64,000 nucleotides of DNA from Raoultibacter phocaeensis (GTDB lineage Bacteria > Actinomycetota > Coriobacteriia > Coriobacteriales > Eggerthellaceae): NCBI RefSeq assembly GCF_901411515.1, contig NZ_CABDUX010000001.1:434001-498000 (forward strand), in the 5' to 3' direction. The notes under the pieces were generated by a model. The model was not told the origin of the DNA and ran no database searches. It saw only the letters and a list, made by a program, of their open reading frames with translations. A program made the translations under genes and the position numbers. Shown in pieces: positions 41,960-53,696 of this stretch (positions within the stretch are counted from its first letter, which is position 1; each line of letters starts with the position of its first letter).

Positions 41960-44900
41960 CTAACTCAAATCGATGCGGACCGAGTCGTCGGGCTTCCATG
42001 CATGCTCATCGCAAGGGATGGCCATTATGTAAGCCTTCACCACATCGATGGCAATAGCATATTCGTCGCCGAGGAAGCGTATCTCGGATATATCGTCGGA
42101 TGCTGCGGCTATCTTCGCAAGCACGTCTTGGTGTACGGTATGCGTCGGGGTGAGCAGGACGACGGAGGCGTGCAACCCTTGGAGTGCCCCGCCCGCAAGC
42201 GCATCGGCATGCTTATCGGCCCGCGTTACGGCAAGCTTATCGAACGACAGACGCTCGGCATTACCGCGCGCCGCATCGGTAGCCCATTCGGCCACGATAA
42301 GCGAGGTCTCGATGCGGTCGTCTCCGCCCAATCGGATTACATCCGTTTCGGCAAGCCCCATCGCAGCCCGCACTGACTCGACAGCCGACTCGGGAATGGA
42401 AAATGCATCACCGAGGACGATCACGCGATCGAATCCACCCGTCCGCAGTGCGTCGAGCGTCGACGGGAAGAAAGACTGCTCGTCAAACGAGCTCAAGAAT
42501 ATCGGGCTGTTCGTGGCCGCCGCCCAGGGAGAAATCGACAACGAATCGGGAAATTCCATCGATCGGGCAAGGATAGCCGTTTTCGATGCCGACGAGCCGA
42601 GTTCCTGGTATATAAGCTCTGCGGTCTGCTGACGACCTTCTCCACCGAGGCGGACTATTTCAGCCGCAGGATGCAGCGCTTCAAGCGCTTGTTCCACTTC
42701 GGCAGACACCGAGTACTCGCTTCCGATGATGTATATCTTCTCCACCGCCTGCGCAGCTTCCACTACCGAGCGCGCGGCATCGCCCAAGTAATCGGGCTGG
42801 GATAAAACGATCGGCGCATTATCGTGAGCACCTGAAAGCGAACTTGCTGCTAAAGCATCGGGGAAATGCTGGTCTGCCCCTGACGCAATGATGAGCGTCT
42901 TTTCGGTGGCGATGTCCCGCTCGTACGTTGCCACATTCTTGGACGTATCGAAGCGGTCTGCCCCGTACAGTCGCGCCACGTTCAGCACGTCAAGGCTTGT
43001 CGGAGCCTCCCATTTCGCATACAGGGTCATTCCCTCGGTAACCGGATCGGCAAAATCCCACTTCGTTGCATAGCCCGGATCGGTATGCCACCCCGCAAGC
43101 GTATGGTCTTCCTTGGAAAGACCGGACGGTTCCGCAAGCTGCGAGCCCACGGCAACCCGCTCGTCGGCGAGCGCCTGAGCGGTATTGGTGACGAAAGAAA
43201 CCGTCACATAGCGAGTCATGGGAGCTGGATGATAGGCATTCCAGCTCGACAGATCGTAGATGTTTCGGTCGACGGCGCTGTTGCGCACGTACTCGATGGC
43301 ATAGTCCTTGGAAGCGCCGGCATCGAGAGCCGTCAATTCCACGGAACCTTCCTCGCCATCGCCGGTCTCGGGAAGCCAGAGATACACCGTGCCGTCGGCA
43401 TCCGACACCACATCGTTGATGCCGTACACGCCGGCACCCGGAACCTCCGCACATGCCACGCCGTCAATGGAACCCGCCGTTACCGAAGCGGAGGCAGCGC
43501 CGAGCGAAAGGACGCTCGGGAAGATAAGGGCTCCTTGGCTATTCTTCCAGTTGCCATCCCCGTATCCGATGATGCCAATGTCCTTCTGCCCGCCGTACTC
43601 CGAAAACACCGATCCGCCGTCGATGACGACCGACTCGGCGCCAATGCCGTTTCGGCCGTTGCTCACCGTTGGATTGATTGGCTTCGACTTCGCCACCACC
43701 GTGCCGCCGTTGATGACCACGGTGCCTTTGCGCAGGTTGCTGCCATCCCCCGCACCGATGGCGTGCGAGTTCGACGTCCACCCGTTGGAGGTCGCTTCGA
43801 CAATGCCGCCGTTGATCGTAACGGTACCGAGAACACCTCCCTTGCCCGATGAGTGCCGTCCGCCGGCACCGATGCCAGGGCCGAAGGAGAACCCGCCGTT
43901 CGTCGCGGAACCCGCGAGATTTGCCGCTTTGATCGTTCCCGAGTTGATGACGATCGACGTCACATCGGCATCCTTGCCGCCGCCGATGCCGGCACCCGAC
44001 GTCGAGGCAGACGTGGGAATCGCAAGCCCGAGCCCCGTATCGAACAGCGTTGTCGCACTATCGCGCGGTACTTGCGAGGACGCGACAACGCTCGGGTTGC
44101 CGTCGATGAGGATCGAACCTACCGACACGCGGTTCGTAGTCGCATTCTTACCCTCGCCCGATCCGATGCCCGCCCCGTAGGTTCCGTCCGACGCTTCGAC
44201 GACCGCGAACACATCGCCTCCATCGATTTCAATGGCCGAAACGCTTCCGTAGCGGCCCGAGCCGATAGCGGCGCCGTACGCAGTGCCGCTTGAACCCGAT
44301 ACGGCCTTGACGGTGCTGTCGGAAAGCAGGATCGTGCCCCCCGCCGAACCGTAGGCACCCGACCCGATGACGGCACCCGAATTCGAACCTTGCGCCGCTT
44401 TTGCAATCGCAGTTACCTGGGAGCGCTCGATGGTTATATCGCCCGACGTAACCGCAATGGTGGAGTAGTTCATCGTATCGCCGCTGCCCGAACCGATGAG
44501 CGCACCGCTAACGCCGCCCGCAGCATTGCTGCCGGCGACGATCGGAGTCGCCGTGATATCGATGATCGCATCGTTCACTGAAATGCTGCCCGCAACGCCG
44601 ATATAGCCTGATCCGATGATCGCGCCTCTGACCCCTGCACCCGGATACATAGTCGTCGCGGTAGCGGTGTTCTCCGTCTGCGCGGCTACGAAAAGCGCTA
44701 CGTTTTTGATCGTTATCAGCCCCGAATCGGTGTTTGCCGCGCTGCCGATTACGGCACCCGAGGTCACTATGGCACTCGAGCTGTTCGCACGGGTATGGTT
44801 CGCCTCGATTGCCAGGGAATCAGTGCCCGAATCGGTTTCGCCGGATACGGTCAGTTCCGCACCGGCAGGTACCGAGATCACCGCATAGGAACGCGTTGCG

Positions 44901-45538
44901 GCTGTTGCCGAGTTTTTGATCGAGTTTCCCGCGCCCCGCACGTGCAGGTCCACCACCGCACCAGGCTGAAGGCTCATCGTGGACGCGTCGGTCTTTTCCA
45001 GGTTCACGCCGTCGAGGACGATGGTTCCCTGAAAGGAGGACGCAACCGTTACCGTAGCATCCGACGCCGCCGAAGACCCCTTGAGGACAACCGTGCCGTC
45101 GTGGGCAACGGACGAACCGCCCGCAACGACGCTGGTTTCGTCGATGGCGATCGTGCTGTTCGCAGCCAAGGCGGAAAGATCGATTTCCGCTTCCGCACGC
45201 AGCTCGACTTCCCCGTCCTGCGCCTCGGCGAGCGAGACGAGCGCCTCGGGAGTCGCAATCGGTTCATCGGGCTTCGCAGGCGCATCGTTTGCGGATACGT
45301 CTCCCTCCTCGACACCCGAAGAGCCGGTTCCGCCGGACTCGGGGGATTCGCTTTCGGGCAAACCCTCGTCGCTTGGGGCTTGAGGGGCGCCGCCCTGCTG
45401 CATGTTCGGTACGTCGCCCACATCTGCCGCAGCGTGCGGCGGCGATACCAAGCCGAGCCCGGGTACGAGCCCGAACGCGAGCACTACGGAGAGCAGAAAA
45501 CGCATCGCCCGCGATGGTTGCATTGCTTTTTTGTTCAT
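41960..45538 (-). CDS. Large secreted surface protein with beta-helix repeats, InlB B-repeat and CWBR2 cell-wall domains
   Basis: 1192 residues, GAAAGGAAAC before ATG 45538. A Sec signal (about 1-38, ends PPHAAA) is followed by a Ser/Glu/Pro-rich linker. A long series of degenerate Gly/Ser/Ala repeats (about 180-700, core GAxIGSG) fits a right-handed beta-helix. Next is an InlB/Listeria-Bacteroides repeat (TLAGWHTDPGYATKWDFADP, about 845). Three C-terminal CWBR2 (PF04122) repeats begin RLYGADRFDTS, RLGGEGRQQTA and RLGGDDRIETS. CWBR2 binds anionic wall polymer without a sortase motif, so it is non-covalently displayed, probably for adhesion. The MarR protein gene upstream is on the same strand and may regulate it. 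Confidence 0.93.
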   Translation of the reverse strand: MNKKAMQPSRAMRFLLSVVLAFGLVPGLGLVSPPHAAADVGDVPNMQQGGAPQAPSDEGLPESESPESGGTGSSGVEEGDVSANDAPAKPDEPIATPEALVSLAEAQDGEVELRAEAEIDLSALAANSTIAIDETSVVAGGSSVAHDGTVVLKGSSAASDATVTVASSFQGTIVLDGVNLEKTDASTMSLQPGAVVDLHVRGAGNSIKNSATAATRSYAVISVPAGAELTVSGETDSGTDSLAIEANHTRANSSSAIVTSGAVIGSAANTDSGLITIKNVALFVAAQTENTATATTMYPGAGVRGAIIGSGYIGVAGSISVNDAIIDITATPIVAGSNAAGGVSGALIGSGSGDTMNYSTIAVTSGDITIERSQVTAIAKAAQGSNSGAVIGSGAYGSAGGTILLSDSTVKAVSGSSGTAYGAAIGSGRYGSVSAIEIDGGDVFAVVEASDGTYGAGIGSGEGKNATTNRVSVGSILIDGNPSVVASSQVPRDSATTLFDTGLGLAIPTSASTSGAGIGGGKDADVTSIVINSGTIKAANLAGSATNGGFSFGPGIGAGGRHSSGKGGVLGTVTINGGIVEATSNGWTSNSHAIGAGDGSNLRKGTVVINGGTVVAKSKPINPTVSNGRNGIGAESVVIDGGSVFSEYGGQKDIGIIGYGDGNWKNSQGALIFPSVLSLGAASASVTAGSIDGVACAEVPGAGVYGINDVVSDADGTVYLWLPETGDGEEGSVELTALDAGASKDYAIEYVRNSAVDRNIYDLSSWNAYHPAPMTRYVTVSFVTNTAQALADERVAVGSQLAEPSGLSKEDHTLAGWHTDPGYATKWDFADPVTEGMTLYAKWEAPTSLDVLNVARLYGADRFDTSKNVATYERDIATEKTLIIASGADQHFPDALAASSLSGAHDNAPIVLSQPDYLGDAARSVVEAAQAVEKIYIIGSEYSVSAEVEQALEALHPAAEIVRLGGEGRQQTAELIYQELGSSASKTAILARSMEFPDSLSISPWAAATNSPIFLSSFDEQSFFPSTLDALRTGGFDRVIVLGDAFSIPESAVESVRAAMGLAETDVIRLGGDDRIETSLIVAEWATDAARGNAERLSFDKLAVTRADKHADALAGGALQGLHASVVLLTPTHTVHQDVLAKIAAASDDISEIRFLGDEYAIAIDVVKAYIMAIPCDEHAWKPDDSVRIDLS

Positions 45539-45610: not shown

Positions 45611-46054
45611 TCATCGAAACGAACACGCCCATTCCTGGAAGAAACGGTCGGCGTCGAACATGATTTTCTTCAACCGCTCCTTGACGAGCTCGTGATCGAT
45701 TTCGGAATAGCTTTCGGGACATGCCCTCATGATTTCTTCTCCCGAATCGGTCAAGCGGATGGTGATCTTACGCTTGTCATCCGATTGGGATCCGACTACG
45801 TTGAGCAAGCCCTGCTGTTCGAGTTCGTTGACGAACATCCGAGCAGCCTGCGTGGAAAGGCGGTTCTCGCGAGCAACTTCAGTCAAACTGGCTGAAGCGC
45901 TGAATTCCGAAACCGCCGCAAGAATGAGATACTGTCGAGCCGTCAGGCTCCCGTAGGCTGACCTGAGAAGAGCGTCGGTGCTTTTCTTGACATCGAGGCA
46001 CACTTTCATGGTTTCACGCATGGCCGCCCCAATCATTCGGATGCGGGCAAACAT
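45611..46054 (-). CDS. MarR-family transcriptional regulator (second)
   Basis: About 147 residues; the start is uncertain (ATG 46054 taken, ATG 46021 possible; neither has a clear ribosome site). The winged helix shows LTARQYLILAAVSEFSASAS, TEVARENRLSTQAARMFVNE and SDDKRKITIRLTDSG. It lies 72 bp upstream of the adhesin gene in the same direction, a natural regulator for it. Confidence 0.85.
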   Translation of the reverse strand: MFARIRMIGAAMRETMKVCLDVKKSTDALLRSAYGSLTARQYLILAAVSEFSASASLTEVARENRLSTQAARMFVNELEQQGLLNVVGSQSDDKRKITIRLTDSGEEIMRACPESYSEIDHELVKERLKKIMFDADRFFQEWACSFR

Positions 46055-46452
46055 GCACGAAAAGCGCGGCCTTCGTCGTAAACGCGAACGGGTACGGCTT
46101 CCCGAACGAAGTTGTACCCGTTTCCTGCGGTGATCTAGGAGGTGCTGTAGCGGCTGCCCCGCCCGCATGCGCTGGCCGAGACAACGCAGCTAACCGCGAG
46201 ACGAATGCGCGGCTTTCTTCTCGCTGTCCGCGTCGATGCGCGCTGTCGCCGTTTTCGCTATCGCAGACACCATGCGAAAGCTCTGAAAATGCACCCCCCC
46301 CCGATATATATAACTACTTACAATATTTTGTGTCATCCTGAGCCCTTTCCTGCACATGTACTATATTCCCTAATAATTATGCAGGATACTACATTTTTTG
46401 TGTTTAGAAAATACCTTACATATTTACCTGATGAGATGCTGCCGAAAACGCA
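46055..46452. other. AT-rich intergenic region
   Basis: About 400 bp upstream of MarR 2. Bases 46290-46440 are strikingly AT-rich after a run of nine C. It contains TATATAACTACTTACA (46307-46322), like the palindrome core near MarR 1. Probably the promoter region of MarR 2; no gene seen. Confidence 0.5.
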
Positions 46453-46476
46453 CGTGCCCGCACGTATGCGGGCACG
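46453..46476 (-). terminator. Terminator of the VTC operon
   Basis: 10-bp arms CGTGCCCGCA and TGCGGGCACG with loop CGTA. On the minus strand GCGTTTTCGG follows. It lies 38 bp past the stop of the Cthe_2159-type gene. Confidence 0.65.
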
Positions 46477-46513: not shown

Positions 46514-48643
46514 TTACCCCCGCATACCGCGCTGCACATCGCCGGGGGTTCCCGCCGGCATGCCTCCGCCACCCATGCCGCCTGTCGGTGTGGTCGAAGC
46601 GGTTATCGAAGTCGACGTACCGCCCGACACCGTGCCCGATTCAGCGTATCCGTCGGCGTTCGCATCGGCAACCGTACCGCCGATGACGAGCTGATACGTG
46701 CCGCCTTCCTCGAAAAGAGGCGAACTTGCAAGCACCATGCCGAACTGCTTGGTCGAAGTATAGGATACGAGCACGGTACCCGCTTCGTCGGTCACGGCAA
46801 CCGACTCGCCAGCGCTGCCGCTGATCGTATTGAACGAGAAAGGCTGTTCGCCGCTGGTGAAGTTCTGGGCCATCCCGGTCGAGCCCACCATGAGCACGGT
46901 GCCCCCCGAAACGCTTGCCGAAAGATCATAGTCGAACGCGCCGTCACCGCTGCTCGTGGGACCGGTCACCAGAAGCACGCCGCCCGATATCTCGACGGTG
47001 CCGTTGGAATCGACCGCATCGCCGCCCGCTTCGAGCACCGTGTAGCCACCGGTTATCTCGATGAGGCAGTTTTCGTCGCCCATGGTCATGCCTCCCTCGG
47101 CAAACGCGTTGTCGGGCGCTCCGCCGTTCTGCATGCGCTCGCTGCCCTCTTCGCCCGACTGCTCGAACGATCCGCCGGGCACCATACCGCCTCCCGGACC
47201 TTGCGCGGCGCTCTCATCCGACGCGCCTGTGCCGCTCGCTTCGGCGGCGGCTTTATCGGCCGGCGTTTCGGCTGCCGCTGCGTTGATCGCATCGTCATCA
47301 GCAACGATGTGCGTATCACCGCCGTTGATGAAGAGTTTCTCCGCCTCGTAGCCTTCGAAACAGCTTCGGATGTCGATCGTACCGCCATCGATGGTAAGCG
47401 AAGTTTCGGCGTGCACTGCATCGTCGCCCGCGTCGATCGTAAGGTCACCGCCCGAAATCAGCGCATCGAGATCGCTGTGTATCGCATCGTCCGTCGCTTC
47501 GATCGAAAGCGTGCCGCCCGCGACGCGCAGATACGTGACGGCTTGGATGCCGTCGTCGCCTGCACTCAGGTCGAACGTACCGCCGTCGATGGTCACGAAT
47601 CCGCGTACTTCGTCGGTATCCTTGTTCGACTTGATGCAGTCTCCGCCCGCAACAACGCTGAACGTGCCGTCGAGGATCTTCACGCAGTCGCGACCGCGCA
47701 GGCCGTCTTCGACCGCCTGCACCGTGAAGGCGCCTCCCGTAATCACGAGATCGTCCTTCGAGCAGATAGCATGGCGATACGAGCTCGTCACCGCGAGCGC
47801 GCCCGTTCCGTTGATCGTCACGTCGCTTTTGCTGAACAAGGTCGCATACGGCTCGTCGGAACCGTCCTCAAGCACGTAGTTCGCGCCGTCGGAAAGCGTG
47901 TTCACCGAACCGTCTGCCAGCGTGATGAAGCATTTGTCAGTTTGCTTGACGTAAAGAGCCGGTCCCTCTTCGTTGTGGATGGTAACACCGTCAAGAACGA
48001 TCTGCACCTTCACGGTATCGGCCGTTTCAACGACAAGCTGCCCATCGGAAAGCTCCCCTGACACGATGTAGGTTCCCTCTTCGGCGATCGTAACCGTCGA
48101 TCCGTCCGCAACGGCTCCCGAACCGTCGACGGTCGAACCTTCTTGCGACAGCCCGATGCGCGTGGCCGTCGTTTCGTCAAAGCTTGCATCTTTGTCGCGA
48201 TCGGTGTACTCGAAATCCATGCCCGCGACGTTGGCGGACGATACGACGTCTGCGCCCGTCGTCGTGGCGGCCGTCGAAGTCGCCGAAGCGGTTGTAGACG
48301 AGGTGCCGGACGAGCCCGCCTCGCCGGTCGGCGATTCGGCGGACATCGAGCAGGCAGGCAAACACAGCGCAGCCGCAAGCCCGATCGAAAGGGCGAAGCT
48401 TCCGACCGATCTTCGCGTAGGCGCCGAGCGCACGCCGTGGGCGGTTTCCGCCGCACAGGCTGCCTCCGTCGTAGCGGCCATTTCCCCTGCTGAGATTGCC
48501 TCCCTTGCGGAGGTCATTTCGTCTGTAGAGGTTGTTGGCGCTACTGAGGTTGCCTTTTCCGCAGAGGTTGTTTCCATTGCAGAAGCTTTCGCCGATACCG
48601 GAGTGGTTTTCGCTTTGAAGGTGGTTTCGGAAGAATGGTTCAT
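46514..48643 (-). CDS. Cthe_2159-type carbohydrate-binding lipoprotein
   Basis: 709 residues from ATG 48643. A lipobox LCLPAC occurs near residue 94, after an unusually long Ser/Thr/Ala/Glu-rich leader made of degenerate repeats; the true start may be a later Met. The body (about 150-480) has the repeating IDGGTFDLSAGDDGIQA and ISGGDLTIDAGDDAVHAE pattern of the Cthe_2159 (PF14262) beta-helix, which binds polygalacturonate-like polymers in the founding member. A second beta region follows a Gly/Gln linker. It is last in the operon after the VTC and DUF4956 genes, with 2 bp between stop and start, and is anchored outside the membrane. Confidence 0.85.
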   Translation of the reverse strand: MNHSSETTFKAKTTPVSAKASAMETTSAEKATSVAPTTSTDEMTSAREAISAGEMAATTEAACAAETAHGVRSAPTRRSVGSFALSIGLAAALCLPACSMSAESPTGEAGSSGTSSTTASATSTAATTTGADVVSSANVAGMDFEYTDRDKDASFDETTATRIGLSQEGSTVDGSGAVADGSTVTIAEEGTYIVSGELSDGQLVVETADTVKVQIVLDGVTIHNEEGPALYVKQTDKCFITLADGSVNTLSDGANYVLEDGSDEPYATLFSKSDVTINGTGALAVTSSYRHAICSKDDLVITGGAFTVQAVEDGLRGRDCVKILDGTFSVVAGGDCIKSNKDTDEVRGFVTIDGGTFDLSAGDDGIQAVTYLRVAGGTLSIEATDDAIHSDLDALISGGDLTIDAGDDAVHAETSLTIDGGTIDIRSCFEGYEAEKLFINGGDTHIVADDDAINAAAAETPADKAAAEASGTGASDESAAQGPGGGMVPGGSFEQSGEEGSERMQNGGAPDNAFAEGGMTMGDENCLIEITGGYTVLEAGGDAVDSNGTVEISGGVLLVTGPTSSGDGAFDYDLSASVSGGTVLMVGSTGMAQNFTSGEQPFSFNTISGSAGESVAVTDEAGTVLVSYTSTKQFGMVLASSPLFEEGGTYQLVIGGTVADANADGYAESGTVSGGTSTSITASTTPTGGMGGGGMPAGTPGDVQRGMRG

Positions 48644-48645
48644 AG

Positions 48646-49341
48646 TTACAGCACGTCCCTTGCAACGGCCGGACGGCCGCACGATATCTTGAGGTTTCCA
48701 TTGCGGTAGCGCAGCTCGTCGATCATGCTCTTCTCGTATCCGGGGCGCTTGAGCTGGATTTCGTATTCAAGCAGAAAGAGGCTTCCCATGTTGGTAGTCT
48801 GCACCTCGATGAGCTCATGCGAATCGGTATAGCGATCGAACACATCGTCGAACAGTCCTGTGTAGTCGAGATCTTCGGGTATCGTGATTTTGAGCGCTTT
48901 GCCCGGCTCTTTCTTCTTGCCGAACGGCGAGACTACATAGATCACGTTTGCAAACCCCACGATCACGGTGAACGCAGCCGCAAGCCACAAGAAGCCCATC
49001 CCGGTGGCAAGCCCGATCGCCATTGCGAAGAACACGCTGCCGATGTCTTTTGCGCTGCCGGGGATGGAGCGGAACCGAACGAGGTTGAACACGCCCATCA
49101 CCGCGATGCCCGCCCCAAGGTTTCCGTTGACGAGTGTGATGACCATCTGCACGATAAGCGGCAAAAGCGCCAGCGTGACCACGAAGTTTTTCGAGTAGTT
49201 GTGCTTGAACATGTACACCATCGCAACCGCACAGCCGAGCACAAGCGAAGCGAGGCAGCACCAGAGAAAACTGGTCGAGGATATATTGGCAACAAGCGAA
49301 TCGCTCGTGCCGAACACCGAGGTAAACATAGAATCAAGCAT
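48646..49341 (-). CDS. DUF4956 membrane protein
   Basis: 231 residues from ATG 49341. Three or four N-terminal helices (about 20-140), with LVNGNLGAGIAVMGVFNLVR and FRSIPGSAKDIGSVFFAMAI, are the family core; a soluble C-terminal domain follows (about 150-231). The gene overlaps the end of the VTC gene by 8 bp. The family nearly always occurs next to VTC proteins; its function is unknown, and a membrane partner or channel is a common guess. Confidence 0.9.
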   Translation of the reverse strand: MLDSMFTSVFGTSDSLVANISSTSFLWCCLASLVLGCAVAMVYMFKHNYSKNFVVTLALLPLIVQMVITLVNGNLGAGIAVMGVFNLVRFRSIPGSAKDIGSVFFAMAIGLATGMGFLWLAAAFTVIVGFANVIYVVSPFGKKKEPGKALKITIPEDLDYTGLFDDVFDRYTDSHELIEVQTTNMGSLFLLEYEIQLKRPGYEKSMIDELRYRNGNLKISCGRPAVARDVL

Positions 49342-50389
49342 AGGTTTTCTTCCTCTCGTTTGTTGCACCGTGACGGCCGTGGTCAGCTTTCGCGCTCGCA
49401 GTGCGACGGGAAACCGTTATCGCATCGGCAGTGCGGCCGCGTGAAGCGGGAGCCGTTATCGCATCGGAGGTGCACCTGCACGACGGCGCCATCCCCGCGT
49501 GTCGCGGCGAGTCGGCTTTCACACCTTCAACGAAGCCGAATTTGGAGCGTTTTTTCGCATGGCGTCCCTGCGGCGTATCGGCAAGAAGAGCCGCTGAAGC
49601 AACCGGGACGAACGCTTCAGCCTCCGTGCGCAGCGACTGATTTCCTACCAGCGAGAGGTACGCCGCACCGTACTTCGAAAACGACTGCGGAAAGGCGCGC
49701 GCCGCGCTCAACGCATCGACGAGCCACGTTGGGAGCGGTCCTGCGTTCTTCACCTCCATGATGACCTCGCCGGGTTCGATAAGCGGCTCGGAATCCTCCG
49801 TGAGCCGGATGCTTTTCGCCGTGCTATCGGCCACGATGCCGGCGTCGAACGTGATGCGCAGCTCGCTTGCAAGCGGATCGGCATACGCCCCCCGATCGCA
49901 GATGACAAGCATCGAGGGCGCCAGCCGCTCGTAACGCTCCCGGAAAAAATCGATCTCTGCAGCAATCTGAAGGCTTCGCCGGGAAAGCGACTGCTCGGCG
50001 GCGAGGGGATCGTCAAGCGGAGCTGCCATGCAAGCGCGCTTGTACGATTCACCTCCCAGATACGCATTCGCCGCAGCGAGCGTCATCGAAACGCGCCGCT
50101 TGTACACGATGCCCTCGAACTTCTTCTTGATTTCCAAAAACGCCTGCGTGTTGTCGGTCGCCTCGCCGTATGTGCGCAGCCGAAGCTTTTCCTTATAGAG
50201 CGGTTTATCGAGCGAGCGTTCGATAATCGCGTATTCCGGCGTGTCGAAATAGAGGCTTCGCACCTGCGAAAAACCGTACTCCGAAAGCTCCATGTGCTCT
50301 TCGACTGCAGCAAGAAGGCAACGGTGCTGTTTGGCGCTTAAGCGGTATTTCATCTCTTTACGTGCGAAAACATCTGAATAGGTACTCAT
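49334..50389 (-). CDS. VTC-domain protein (polyphosphate polymerase-like)
   Basis: 351 residues from ATG 50389 (GAAAGGAAAC upstream). The CYTH/VTC tunnel fold is seen in RKEMKYRLS, RSLYFDTPEYAI, YKEKLRLRTYG, FLEIKKKFEGIVYKRRV and IMEVKNAGPLPTW, whose basic and acidic residues line the tunnel in yeast Vtc4. There it makes polyphosphate from ATP. The C-terminal 70 residues are a low-complexity Arg/Ala tail coded by repeated DNA (CCGTTATCGCATCGG at 49414 and 49453). It starts the VTC-DUF4956-Cthe_2159 operon. Confidence 0.88.
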   Translation of the reverse strand: MSTYSDVFARKEMKYRLSAKQHRCLLAAVEEHMELSEYGFSQVRSLYFDTPEYAIIERSLDKPLYKEKLRLRTYGEATDNTQAFLEIKKKFEGIVYKRRVSMTLAAANAYLGGESYKRACMAAPLDDPLAAEQSLSRRSLQIAAEIDFFRERYERLAPSMLVICDRGAYADPLASELRITFDAGIVADSTAKSIRLTEDSEPLIEPGEVIMEVKNAGPLPTWLVDALSAARAFPQSFSKYGAAYLSLVGNQSLRTEAEAFVPVASAALLADTPQGRHAKKRSKFGFVEGVKADSPRHAGMAPSCRCTSDAITAPASRGRTADAITVSRRTASAKADHGRHGATNERKKTYA

Positions 50390-50664: not shown

Positions 50665-50955
50665 ATGGAACCGATCTATCCCTTGACCGCTCTCTCGAAA
50701 GACGTTAAGGAAGTGAAGGACTGCGCGAAAGAGAACGTCGTCCGCATCACCGAGAACGGAAAAGCCGCATACATTTTTACGAGCGAGAAAGTATTCGAGG
50801 AGCGTATCCGCAGGGAGCGGGAAGATGCTGCATACGAAGCATATCTGTTGAAAGCCGTTGGTGAGGGCATCGAAGACGTTCAGGCAGGACGCTACGTCAC
50901 TACACGCGAAGAGGTATTCGCCGAAGCGTCGAAACGCAGGAAGCGCCATGCATAA
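50665..50955 (+). CDS. Phd/YefM-type antitoxin
   Basis: 96 residues, GAAAGGAG before ATG 50665. The N-terminus YPLTALSKDVKEVKDCAKEN and VRITENGKAAYIFTSEKVFE fit the Phd/YefM DNA-binding fold; the rest is a helical toxin-neutralising tail. It overlaps the start of a RelE/ParE-type toxin gene by 8 bp, the usual arrangement. The toxin is frameshifted here. Confidence 0.85.
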   Translation: MEPIYPLTALSKDVKEVKDCAKENVVRITENGKAAYIFTSEKVFEERIRREREDAAYEAYLLKAVGEGIEDVQAGRYVTTREEVFAEASKRRKRHA

Positions 50956-51218
50956 GATTGTCTACGCCGATCGGTTCATCGACGATGTTGCCCAGGTTTA
51001 CTCAGAAACCGTACTGGCTGAAATCGATAGGTGGTTGGAACTGCTCGAGACGTTACCCGAGATTGGCTCTTCGAACGTACGCGAAATCGCTCACACGCCG
51101 CTTTGGCAATAACCTCAGGAAAATCCCCGTGTCGTCATTCGTCATCGTGTACCGATACGATGACGAAGAAAATCTGCTCGAAGTGCTCGCCATGCCGTAT
51201 GCAGCAACCATTACCTAA
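50948..51218 (+). pseudogene. RelE/ParE-type toxin, frameshifted
   Basis: From ATG 50948 the first frame reads HKIVYADRFIDDVAQVYSET and continues to IGSSNVREI, then stops at 51112. The second half, LTRRFGNNLRKIPVSSFVIV then YRYDDEENLLEVLAM, is in another frame, ending at 51218. Together they make one RelE/ParE-like protein of about 90 residues. One base too many near 51080-51095, for example at GCGAAATCGC, explains it. Either the toxin is inactive or the read has an error. Confidence 0.75.
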
Positions 51219-51426: not shown

Positions 51427-52242
51427 ATGCAGATACTCATCGTCGAAGACGATGCGCGCCTTGCGGCCGCCCTCGGACACATCCTCGAGGAAAACGGCTA
51501 CAAAGTCGATGTCGTGCACGATGGAAAAACGGGGCTCGAATACGGCGAAAGCGGCATGTACGATGTCATCATCCTCGATGTCATGCTGCCGAAGATGAAC
51601 GGCTTCGACGTGGTAGCCGAGCTGCGCCGACGCAAAGTGGATACCGCCGTGCTCATGCTCACCGCGCGCGACGCCGTGCCGGAAAAGATCACCGGACTCG
51701 ACAGCGGAGCAGACGATTACATGACTAAACCGTTTTCGCCCGCCGAGCTGCTCGCCCACCTTCGCGCCCTCACCCGCCGCCAAGGCGAGGTGGTTTTCGA
51801 AACCCTCGAGTACGCCGATCTGACTCTCAACCTCGAAAGTTTCGATCTTACCTACGCCGCAAAGTCCATCCATCTGGGCTTGAAGGAGTTTTCGATCTTG
51901 AAAATCCTCATGCTCAATCCGAACCAGGTCATTTCGAAAGAAACCCTCATCTCCAAAGTGTGGGGCATCGAGTCGAGTGCCGAAGACAACAACGTCGAAG
52001 CGTACATCTCGTTTCTGCGCAAGAAACTCAAGTTCCTCGGGTCGAAGGCGGCAATCGAAACGTTGCGCAAAGCGGGCTATCGTCTGACAGCCGAACGAGC
52101 CGCCGGAACGTCGGCGGATTCAGGGCTGACCGATACGGGCGAAGACGTCGCCGCAGCCGAGCCAGAGAAGACGGAGCGAGCCGCAGAATGCATCGTTGGT
52201 GCGCAATCCGATGCGAATCCCGAAGCGAGGGCCGTCTCGTAG
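51427..52242 (+). CDS. OmpR-family response regulator
   Basis: 271 residues from ATG 51427 (AAGGAG 8 nt upstream). The receiver has LIVEDDARL, the phospho-acceptor in VIILDVMLPKMNG (Asp about 51), MLTARD and KPFSPAEL. The winged helix (about 130-225) has LTLNLESFDLTYAAKSIHLG and NVEAYISFLRKKLKFLGSKA. A 40-residue acidic tail is unusual. The kinase gene overlaps its end, so the two form a pair. Confidence 0.95.
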   Translation: MQILIVEDDARLAAALGHILEENGYKVDVVHDGKTGLEYGESGMYDVIILDVMLPKMNGFDVVAELRRRKVDTAVLMLTARDAVPEKITGLDSGADDYMTKPFSPAELLAHLRALTRRQGEVVFETLEYADLTLNLESFDLTYAAKSIHLGLKEFSILKILMLNPNQVISKETLISKVWGIESSAEDNNVEAYISFLRKKLKFLGSKAAIETLRKAGYRLTAERAAGTSADSGLTDTGEDVAAAEPEKTERAAECIVGAQSDANPEARAVS

Positions 52243-53696
52243 ACGCTACACTGAAAAAGCTCCGCGTCAAATTCGTCGCCATCATCATGGCGATCGTATC
52301 GGTTGTGCTGCTCGCCGTGTTCTCGACCATCTGCGTCATCAACTACCAGCAGGCTGAAAGCAGCGTATACGAAGCGCTGAGTGCAGCGATCGATCACGAC
52401 GCTATGGCGAGGGAGCCTTTTTCTGCAGGCATTCCGCCAAACGGTACCCCGCAGGGGGACGAACCGGGCGCGGGAACCTCGGGGGGTGCCTTCGGGCAGG
52501 GCGAATCGGGGGCGGAAGCCGAGGATCCGTACGCTCAGGGCGAAGCCGACGCGGCGACGGGAAGCGTTCCCGAACAGGGCGGCAAGCCGTTCGAGATTGG
52601 CGGTAAGGAACGAGGCCGGCAATTCATCCCCGTAGCTGTGTACCGCATCAACGATGACGGTTCGCTTTCCGCTGTATCGGATACCGCAACGGCGGCCATC
52701 ACCGACGATGTGCTCGAGCAAGCAACCAACCAGGCAACGAGACTTGCCGACGGATCGGGCCTCATCGATTCGCTCGGTCTGTACTATGCGAAGCGGGCAA
52801 CCGAAAACGGCTCGTTCATCGCGTTTGCCGACCAGGCGTCGGCTGGAGGATGGCAAAGCCTCGCGCTCACGCTGGCCGCTGTGGGCGCAGGGGCGCTCGT
52901 CGTGTTCTTCGCCATCAGCCTCCTGTTTTCGAAATGGGCGCTGAAACCTGTCGAGGAATCGTGGCGCGCGCAGCAGCAGTTCGTGGCCGATGCGTCGCAC
53001 GAACTCAAAACACCGCTTACCGTTATGCTTGCAAACACGTCGATTTTGCTCAAACACCCTGAGAAGACCATCGCAAGCCAAAGCCAATGGGTCGAGAGCA
53101 TCGAAACCGAGGCGGAAAGCATGCAGCGCCTCGTCGGCGATATGCTCGTTTTGGCCACACCCGAACAGGGTCCGCAAACTGGCGAGTTCACCCCCGTCGA
53201 TATAAGCGACATCGTCGAGCGCAACCTTCTGCAGTTCGAATCGCTCGCATTCGAGCAGGATATCGAAGTCGCCTCCTCGATCGAGGAGGGCTTACTTCTG
53301 CCGGGAAACGCCCAACGCCTCGAGCGGCTCGTGAGCACGCTTTTGGACAACGCGTACAAGTATGCAGGCGAGCACGGATTCGTTCGCGTGAACCTTTCGC
53401 TCACCGAGAAGGCTCTCGTGCTTTCGGTTGCCAACTCGGGCGAGGTCATCCCCGCCGACGACCTTCCCCACATCTTCGACCGCTTCTACCGCGCCGACAA
53501 GGCGCGGGTACGCGGCGTCGGCGGCTACGGTCTCGGCCTCGCAATCGCCCGCGAAGTGGCCGAAGAGCACGGCGGCACGATACGCGCACAGAGCTCGGAG
53601 CAGACGGGTACCGTGTTCACTGTGAAGTGGGACGCGAAAACCACTACCCGATCCGACCGCTTTGCGAAAGCCGTCGAAGACACGAGTCCTGTCTGA
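52188..53696 (+). CDS. Sensor histidine kinase
   Basis: About 502 residues if it begins at ATG 52188, which overlaps the regulator by 55 bp; the native start may be nearer the first membrane helix (52250), and no good ribosome site is seen. Helix 1 (KFVAIIMAIVSVVLLAVFS) and helix 2 (LALTLAAVGAGALVVFFAIS) enclose a 190-residue exported domain with a Gly/Glu/Pro-rich low-complexity part. HisKA has ADASHELKTPLTVML (His); HATPase_c has STLLDNAYKYAGEHG (N box) and GVGGYGLGLAIAREV. It lies 3 kb from the VTC operon, which is on the other strand. Confidence 0.92.
   Translation: MHRWCAIRCESRSEGRLVDATLKKLRVKFVAIIMAIVSVVLLAVFSTICVINYQQAESSVYEALSAAIDHDAMAREPFSAGIPPNGTPQGDEPGAGTSGGAFGQGESGAEAEDPYAQGEADAATGSVPEQGGKPFEIGGKERGRQFIPVAVYRINDDGSLSAVSDTATAAITDDVLEQATNQATRLADGSGLIDSLGLYYAKRATENGSFIAFADQASAGGWQSLALTLAAVGAGALVVFFAISLLFSKWALKPVEESWRAQQQFVADASHELKTPLTVMLANTSILLKHPEKTIASQSQWVESIETEAESMQRLVGDMLVLATPEQGPQTGEFTPVDISDIVERNLLQFESLAFEQDIEVASSIEEGLLLPGNAQRLERLVSTLLDNAYKYAGEHGFVRVNLSLTEKALVLSVANSGEVIPADDLPHIFDRFYRADKARVRGVGGYGLGLAIAREVAEEHGGTIRAQSSEQTGTVFTVKWDAKTTTRSDRFAKAVEDTSPV

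Follow-up and report, generated by a model that had tools for sequence, protein, structure and literature searches.

A VTC-DUF4956 operon with exchangeable surface heads: a candidate polymer-delivering unit in Raoultibacter phocaeensis

Yeast provides the precedent for polyphosphate synthesis that is coupled to translocation, and its polymerase Vtc4 is inactivated by changing R264, R266 and E426 (PMC9911596). Recent papers treat VTC polymerases as eukaryotic and assign PPK1 and PPK2 to bacteria. Genes for CotH, a polyphosphate polymerase (PPP) and DUF4956, optionally with DUF4832, have been described as accessories to the pel clusters of Gram-positive bacteria (PMC7112168), and in the NELoc-2 locus of Clostridium perfringens VTC domain proteins share one cluster with CotH (PMC2879425), in which the 'tubulin/FtsZ' membrane genes, encoding 222-226 aa (PMC2879425), probably correspond to DUF4956. 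A VTC gene of Clostridium thermocellum, Clo1313_1989, showed a weak convergent-mutation signal in ethanol-adapted strains (PMC10503014). Here we analysed a 64,000-nucleotide stretch of the Raoultibacter phocaeensis genome (the window), in which the genes for a VTC-type tunnel protein, a DUF4956 membrane protein and a Cthe_2159 surface lipoprotein follow one another, in this order, as an operon on the minus strand (Table 1).

Gene order, co-occurrence and conservation give good support to the view that the VTC protein, DUF4956 and a surface protein, or head, belong together. We put at about even chances the more specific reading that a VTC-type polymerase works together with an MgtC-like partner in the membrane and with a surface head that can be exchanged, so that polyphosphate would be made inside the cell and delivered outward. 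The first-pass annotation of this DNA had remarked that these genes have no established function in bacteria, which agrees with the literature searched. In that literature (open-licence papers only), no paper contained both MgtC and DUF4956, and no report was found of head exchange, of a shared anchor or of an MgtC link. The CotH-VTC-DUF4956 combination is known as a Pel accessory set, and the head exchange, the shared anchor and the MgtC link appear to be new.

The VTC-DUF4956 core

The three genes were found where the first-pass annotation had placed them, coordinates and Pfam assignments agreeing: VTC and DUF4956 overlap by 8 bp (VTC ends at 49334 and DUF4956 starts at 49341), and DUF4956 and Cthe_2159 are separated by 2 bp (end at 48646, start at 48643). 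In the class (Coriobacteriia), VTC was detected in 36 of 149 genomes and DUF4956 in all 36 of them, and the two genes were adjacent at 37 of the 38 VTC loci (Fisher p = 2e-30 for co-occurrence, a test that ignores shared ancestry). The sole class genome with DUF4956 over the cut-off but no VTC carries a broken VTC. Across the phylum, VTC was present in 32 of 296 genomes, a set that partly overlaps that of the class, with DUF4956 in 32 of the 32 and adjacency at 34 of 35 loci. When loci were found by DUF4956 alone, in species genomes that are nearly all from Clostridia, VTC lay alongside in 79 of 80, the remaining locus being interrupted by a contig end, and among the control genomes both families occurred in the same 3 of 14, one of them from Corynebacterium glutamicum, where CotH is present too. 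Random pairing of VTC and DUF4956 is ruled out by this co-occurrence and adjacency in class and phylum; the proposal that the families form one unit, with a co-occurrence check that included CotH, held up in that the association is non-random and CotH occupies the same place as Cthe_2159. At three loci (L068, L088 and L095, in genomes G021, G060 and G106), VTC and/or DUF4956 are broken by stops or truncation, which suggests that some strains can do without the unit.

The VTC protein matches Pfam PF09359 (E 2.7e-36), and since Pfam shows no other domain in it, it is filed under the VTC domain family and not under the eukaryotic VTC complex. A profile built from 33 VTC proteins finds yeast VTC4 (3g3q) with E 1.9e-20, and the profile alignment pairs VTC4 K200, R264, R266, K281, K294, R361 and R373 (numbered along the full-length chain) with K14, R70, R72, K88, K97, R166 and R178 of the window protein. 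At the 109 loci labelled by head, of both kinds, these seven tunnel residues show no variation where their site is covered, and the same is true of E212, K214 and K239. The loss of tunnel residues, which the first-pass annotation had named as an outcome that would speak against its proposal, is ruled out by this invariance. An AlphaFold2 model of the protein, confident in its core, can be superposed on VTC4 (3g3r) with Z 20.7 and a root-mean-square deviation of 3.0 over 234 residues, and the next tunnel enzymes, which are triphosphatases, superpose at Z 13.5 and below. The last 93 residues (about 259-351) form a basic tail, with a net charge of +10, that is disordered in the model. Given that the tunnel is intact, it is likely that the VTC protein polymerises.

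DUF4956 is assigned by Pfam PF16316 (E 7.4e-16, 58.8 bits against a cut-off of 30.6), and its model has about five membrane helices followed by a C-terminal beta-alpha-beta-beta-alpha-beta domain (mean per-residue model confidence, pLDDT, 75). For 24 of 33 DUF4956 relatives, the next family after DUF4956 was Pfam MgtC (best E 5e-4), and profile-profile comparison by hhalign gave 97.8% (E 1.1e-12, for a single comparison) over 193 columns that include the C-terminal domain, whereas reversed and column-shuffled controls stayed below 1%; the window's own DUF4956 family alone reached 94.6%. The window protein scores 12.1 bits against an MgtC cut-off of 31.4, so that it is to be regarded as a remote relative and not as a member of that family. 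These profile comparisons indicate that DUF4956 is remotely homologous to MgtC, with a membrane core and an ACT-like C-terminal domain. A search of the PDB with the DUF4956 model returned no full-length match, and weak ACT-like matches for the C-terminal domain only.

The exchangeable head

The window's third protein belongs to Pfam PF14262 (E 9e-84, 281 bits against a cut-off of 25.8) and matches the solved relative 4peu with E 5.7e-35. It begins with an n-region and a late hydrophobic stretch, which ends in a lipobox (LCLPAC) at about residue 98, and is therefore probably a lipoprotein, as had been proposed when it was described as exported. The suggested layout, with a polymerase in the cytosol, a partner in the membrane and a protein outside, is also judged to be right.

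Elsewhere, the third place is taken by either of two proteins. Within 5 kb of the 38 VTC loci of the class, Cthe_2159 was found at 21 and CotH at 17, with no locus having both or neither. The 80 loci found by DUF4956 comprised 51 with CotH, 27 with Cthe_2159, two with no head call and none with both, and 21 further actinobacterial loci comprised 14 with CotH, three with Cthe_2159, one with both and three with no head call. In total, counting once a genome that appears twice, 138 loci include 82 with CotH, 50 with Cthe_2159, one with both and five with no head call, and the head was CotH or Cthe_2159 in 133 of the 133 loci with a head call. A strict rule of one head and never both would nevertheless be too strong: the sole exception, L233 (4210-10407, plus strand), reads CotH, Cthe_2159, VTC, DUF4956, Cthe_2159, and thus holds CotH together with two Cthe_2159 genes.

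In a combined VTC and DUF4956 tree (111 loci, 109 of them labelled), the head label changes at least 10 times, compared with at least 29 in shuffles, and when weakly supported branches were collapsed and resolved most favourably the lower bound was 10, 5 and 4 changes at support 80, 90 and 95, respectively. These label changes indicate that the VTC-DUF4956 core was retained through repeated exchanges of the head. Recent DNA breakpoints were sought by blastn between sister loci with different heads and none was found: matches stop where DUF4956 ends or shortly after the third gene begins, so that no scar of recent recombination was observed.

Although the outer domains come from unrelated families, the two heads of Clostridia and of some members of the Coriobacteriales share an N-terminal membrane anchor, with a consensus of about MSTHKHIDKICIxxxxLALxLTVLFMNGEALGI. 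A profile of the clostridial CotH anchor matches 23 Cthe_2159 proteins (E <= 1.5e-7), which comprise nearly all of the clostridial ones examined and the two of the Atopobium type; none of the remaining open reading frames (ORFs), out of 7633, falls below E 0.9. The reverse profile, built from Cthe_2159 anchors, behaves alike, and the two anchor alignments match each other at 99.7%; outside the anchor, comparison of CotH and Cthe_2159 heads gave low-complexity matches only. Furthermore, segments rich in Gly, Met, Pro and Gln occur in 38 of 44 Cthe_2159 and 41 of 60 CotH proteins, compared with 16 of 580 other long ORFs, and the window protein likewise has them. In a single actinobacterial case (L220, 4510-6882, minus strand), a 790-aa frame beside DUF4956 contains VTC, a hydrophobic lipobox-like segment and CotH, and could represent either a genuine fusion or two genes that share one frame.

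Gene neighbourhood

The features of the window that bear on the operon are collected in Table 1. The hairpin at 46476-46453 may mark the end of the operon; it is weak evidence because hairpins of this type are no more frequent in the region than expected by chance.

Table 1. Coordinates of the operon and its neighbours in the window
Feature	Position	Strand	Evidence
VTC-type (polyphosphate polymerase-like) tunnel protein, 351 aa, predicted cytosolic	49334..50389	-	Pfam, VTC4 profile match, AlphaFold2 model
DUF4956 membrane protein, 231 aa	48646..49341	-	Pfam, structure model, MgtC similarity
Surface lipoprotein (outer head) of the Cthe_2159 beta-helix family, 709 aa	46514..48643	-	Pfam, 4peu match, lipobox
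Terminator-like hairpin, 10-bp stem, 3' of the Cthe_2159 gene	46453..46476	-	Pattern scan; weak
OmpR-type response regulator, divergent from the operon	51430..52242	+	Recurrent neighbour across loci
Histidine kinase, partner of the OmpR-type regulator	52242..53696 (start approximate)	+	Pfam HisKA and HATPase_c; neighbour conservation
CWB2 adhesin, three repeats, plus Listeria-Bacteroides repeat	41960..45538	-	
MarR-like gene between adhesin and operon	45611..46168		

The first-pass annotation had noted an orphan two-component system 1 kb away. The distance is right, the divergent response regulator lying 1.04 kb from VTC, but the pair is not an orphan, since such a pair recurs upstream of the operon at many loci: regulators and kinases give 23 and 34 matches at positions -1 and -2 from VTC, compared with one and two in the 331 genes that occupy positions +3 to +8. 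The recurrent genes are either divergent from or co-directional with the VTC operon, and the divergent regulator is 57-77% identical within the window's family. The two-component pair is likely to be the regulator of the operon.

In the window, a small two-gene cassette without Pfam match (50665-51218, plus strand) stands between the two-component system and the operon, encoding a 96-aa antitoxin-like protein (Phd/YefM-like by eye) and an overlapping RelE-like frame that is apparently split by a frameshift; several relatives have the regulator immediately next to the operon. The outer loop of the window's kinase (52242-53696) is rich in Gly, Pro and Gln, resembling the head segments, and several kinases elsewhere have Met/Pro-rich loops. 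A general enrichment of such Gly/Met/Pro/Gln-rich segments in sensor kinases was not convincing (6 of 42 against 6 of 121 in the background). The CWB2 adhesin, reported as 0.5 kb away, is actually about 1.0 kb from the operon, with the MarR-like gene in between, and no adhesin cluster was found among the recurrent neighbours of the operon at the sampled loci.

Proposed mechanism, alternatives and known systems

Given the yeast precedent and the outer location of the heads, it is reasonable to suggest that the product is directed outward. The VTC protein would polymerise phosphate from ATP on the cytosolic side of the membrane, inside its basic tunnel, like yeast VTC4. DUF4956, with its five helices and cytosolic ACT-like domain, would bind VTC and provide or gate the passage through the membrane, in the role of yeast's Vtc1-type helices, to which it is unrelated. 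The anchored outer head, Cthe_2159 here and a CotH kinase-fold protein elsewhere, could receive, hold or use the product at the surface, and the neighbouring two-component system would switch the operon on. Polymerase activity, physical assembly, membrane passage, the role of the head and regulation are all predictions of this kind, as is the identity of the polymer, for which polyphosphate is the most likely candidate.

Several points weigh against polyphosphate synthesis and outward delivery by the window unit. Sequence alignments to VTC4 end before E212 and K239, so that these have no residue-level pairing with E426, the metal glutamate, and K458, and Pfam finds neither an SPX domain nor Vtc1-like (DUF202) helices in the window VTC. 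MgtC proteins are known for regulatory and stress functions, not as polymer channels. PPK1 is present in 83 of the 149 class genomes and in 31 of the 36 with VTC, including that of the window, which implies that VTC is not simply a PPK1 substitute and that polyphosphate need not be the product. Finally, the window's Cthe_2159 family lacks the shared anchor and has lipoprotein signals instead, so the anchor argument applies to the window itself by analogy.

The two main rival explanations both retain the same architecture. One would make the unit an accessory of surface polysaccharides, in which VTC and DUF4956 sense or spend phosphate or nucleotides to control or modify a glycan that the head binds or modifies. 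The occurrence of CotH, polyphosphate polymerase and DUF4956 beside Gram-positive pel genes (PMC7112168) fits it, and in the class PelG scores over its cut-off in six genomes, in each of them directly beside CotH-VTC; a glycosyltransferase lies in the cluster of C. perfringens NELoc-2 and in that of a Planococcus plasmid, one CotH head bears a cellulose-binding CBM_2 domain, and binding to cellulose and polygalacturonic acid is on record for Cthe_2159 proteins (PMC6712302). However, PelG is absent from the window genome, which has no contiguous pel genes, and no glycan genes recur around the sampled loci, where the recurrent neighbours are the two-component pair. This explanation is credible but, on balance, unlikely. 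The other would have VTC sense a nucleotide or phosphate, or act as a triphosphatase, while its MgtC-like partner adjusts either ATP synthase or the uptake of phosphate and the head senses the outside, with no export. MgtC proteins influence the balance of ATP and of phosphate, and the kinship of DUF4956 with MgtC, the triphosphatase activity of other tunnel enzymes and the signalling setting suggested by the adjoining two-component system could all be accommodated, but the polymerase tunnel residues are invariant, VTC4 is clearly closer than the triphosphatases, and large surface heads with carbohydrate-binding domains would be odd for a pure sensor. We therefore regard a phosphate or ATP control module as improbable.

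That the three genes are mere operon neighbours in surface-associated clusters, with no joint assembly, is very improbable: they do occur with other surface genes too, yet their near-perfect phylum-wide co-occurrence, the near-strict either/or choice of head, the specific shared anchor, the 8-bp overlap and the joined frame all speak against it. A bolder extension of the polymerase, partner and head proposal would be a widespread polyphosphate-export machine, in which VTC makes the polymer and DUF4956 passes it outward, CotH takes phosphate from it where ATP is absent and Cthe_2159 tethers a calcium-polyphosphate or polyphosphate-glycan layer; we hold this to be improbable. If it were true, MgtC-like folds would gain a role in translocation.

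Conserved in both Actinomycetota and Clostridia, and combined with a defined membrane partner and either of two interchangeable surface heads, a VTC unit of bacteria would make a testable machine of a vague annotation and offer a candidate function at once for DUF4956, non-spore CotH and Cthe_2159 proteins, and the shared anchor predicts which parts touch. If gut bacteria carry polyphosphate or a phosphorylated polymer on their surface, this would matter for adhesion, for biofilms and for the binding of metals.

Among described systems, the yeast VTC complex (Vtc4/Vtc3/Vtc1), a polyphosphate polymerase and translocase, shares with the window unit the tunnel fold, the invariant basic residues, a membrane partner and a product side topologically outside the cytosol, the last predicted for the window unit; it differs in that the window unit is without SPX or Vtc1-like helices, has an MgtC-like partner and an added surface head, and has a polymerase activity that is predicted. 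The MgtC family (PF02308) resembles DUF4956 over the full-length profile, in membrane core and C-terminal ACT-like domain, but DUF4956 scores below its cut-off, occurs with VTC and has a different conserved motif, V-R-[FY]-R. The Gram-positive pel accessory set has the same VTC (PPP) and DUF4956 families, with CotH as the alternative head, whereas the window unit has a Cthe_2159 head in a genome without PelG and stands alone with its own two-component neighbour. NELoc-2 differs from the window in including a glycosyltransferase family 2 (GT2) 'chitin synthase' and a HEAT protein, and in having CotH as its head. Cthe_2159 of C. thermocellum (4peu, 4phb) has the same beta-helix domain, but the window protein belongs to a VTC-DUF4956 operon, and its polymer binding is putative.

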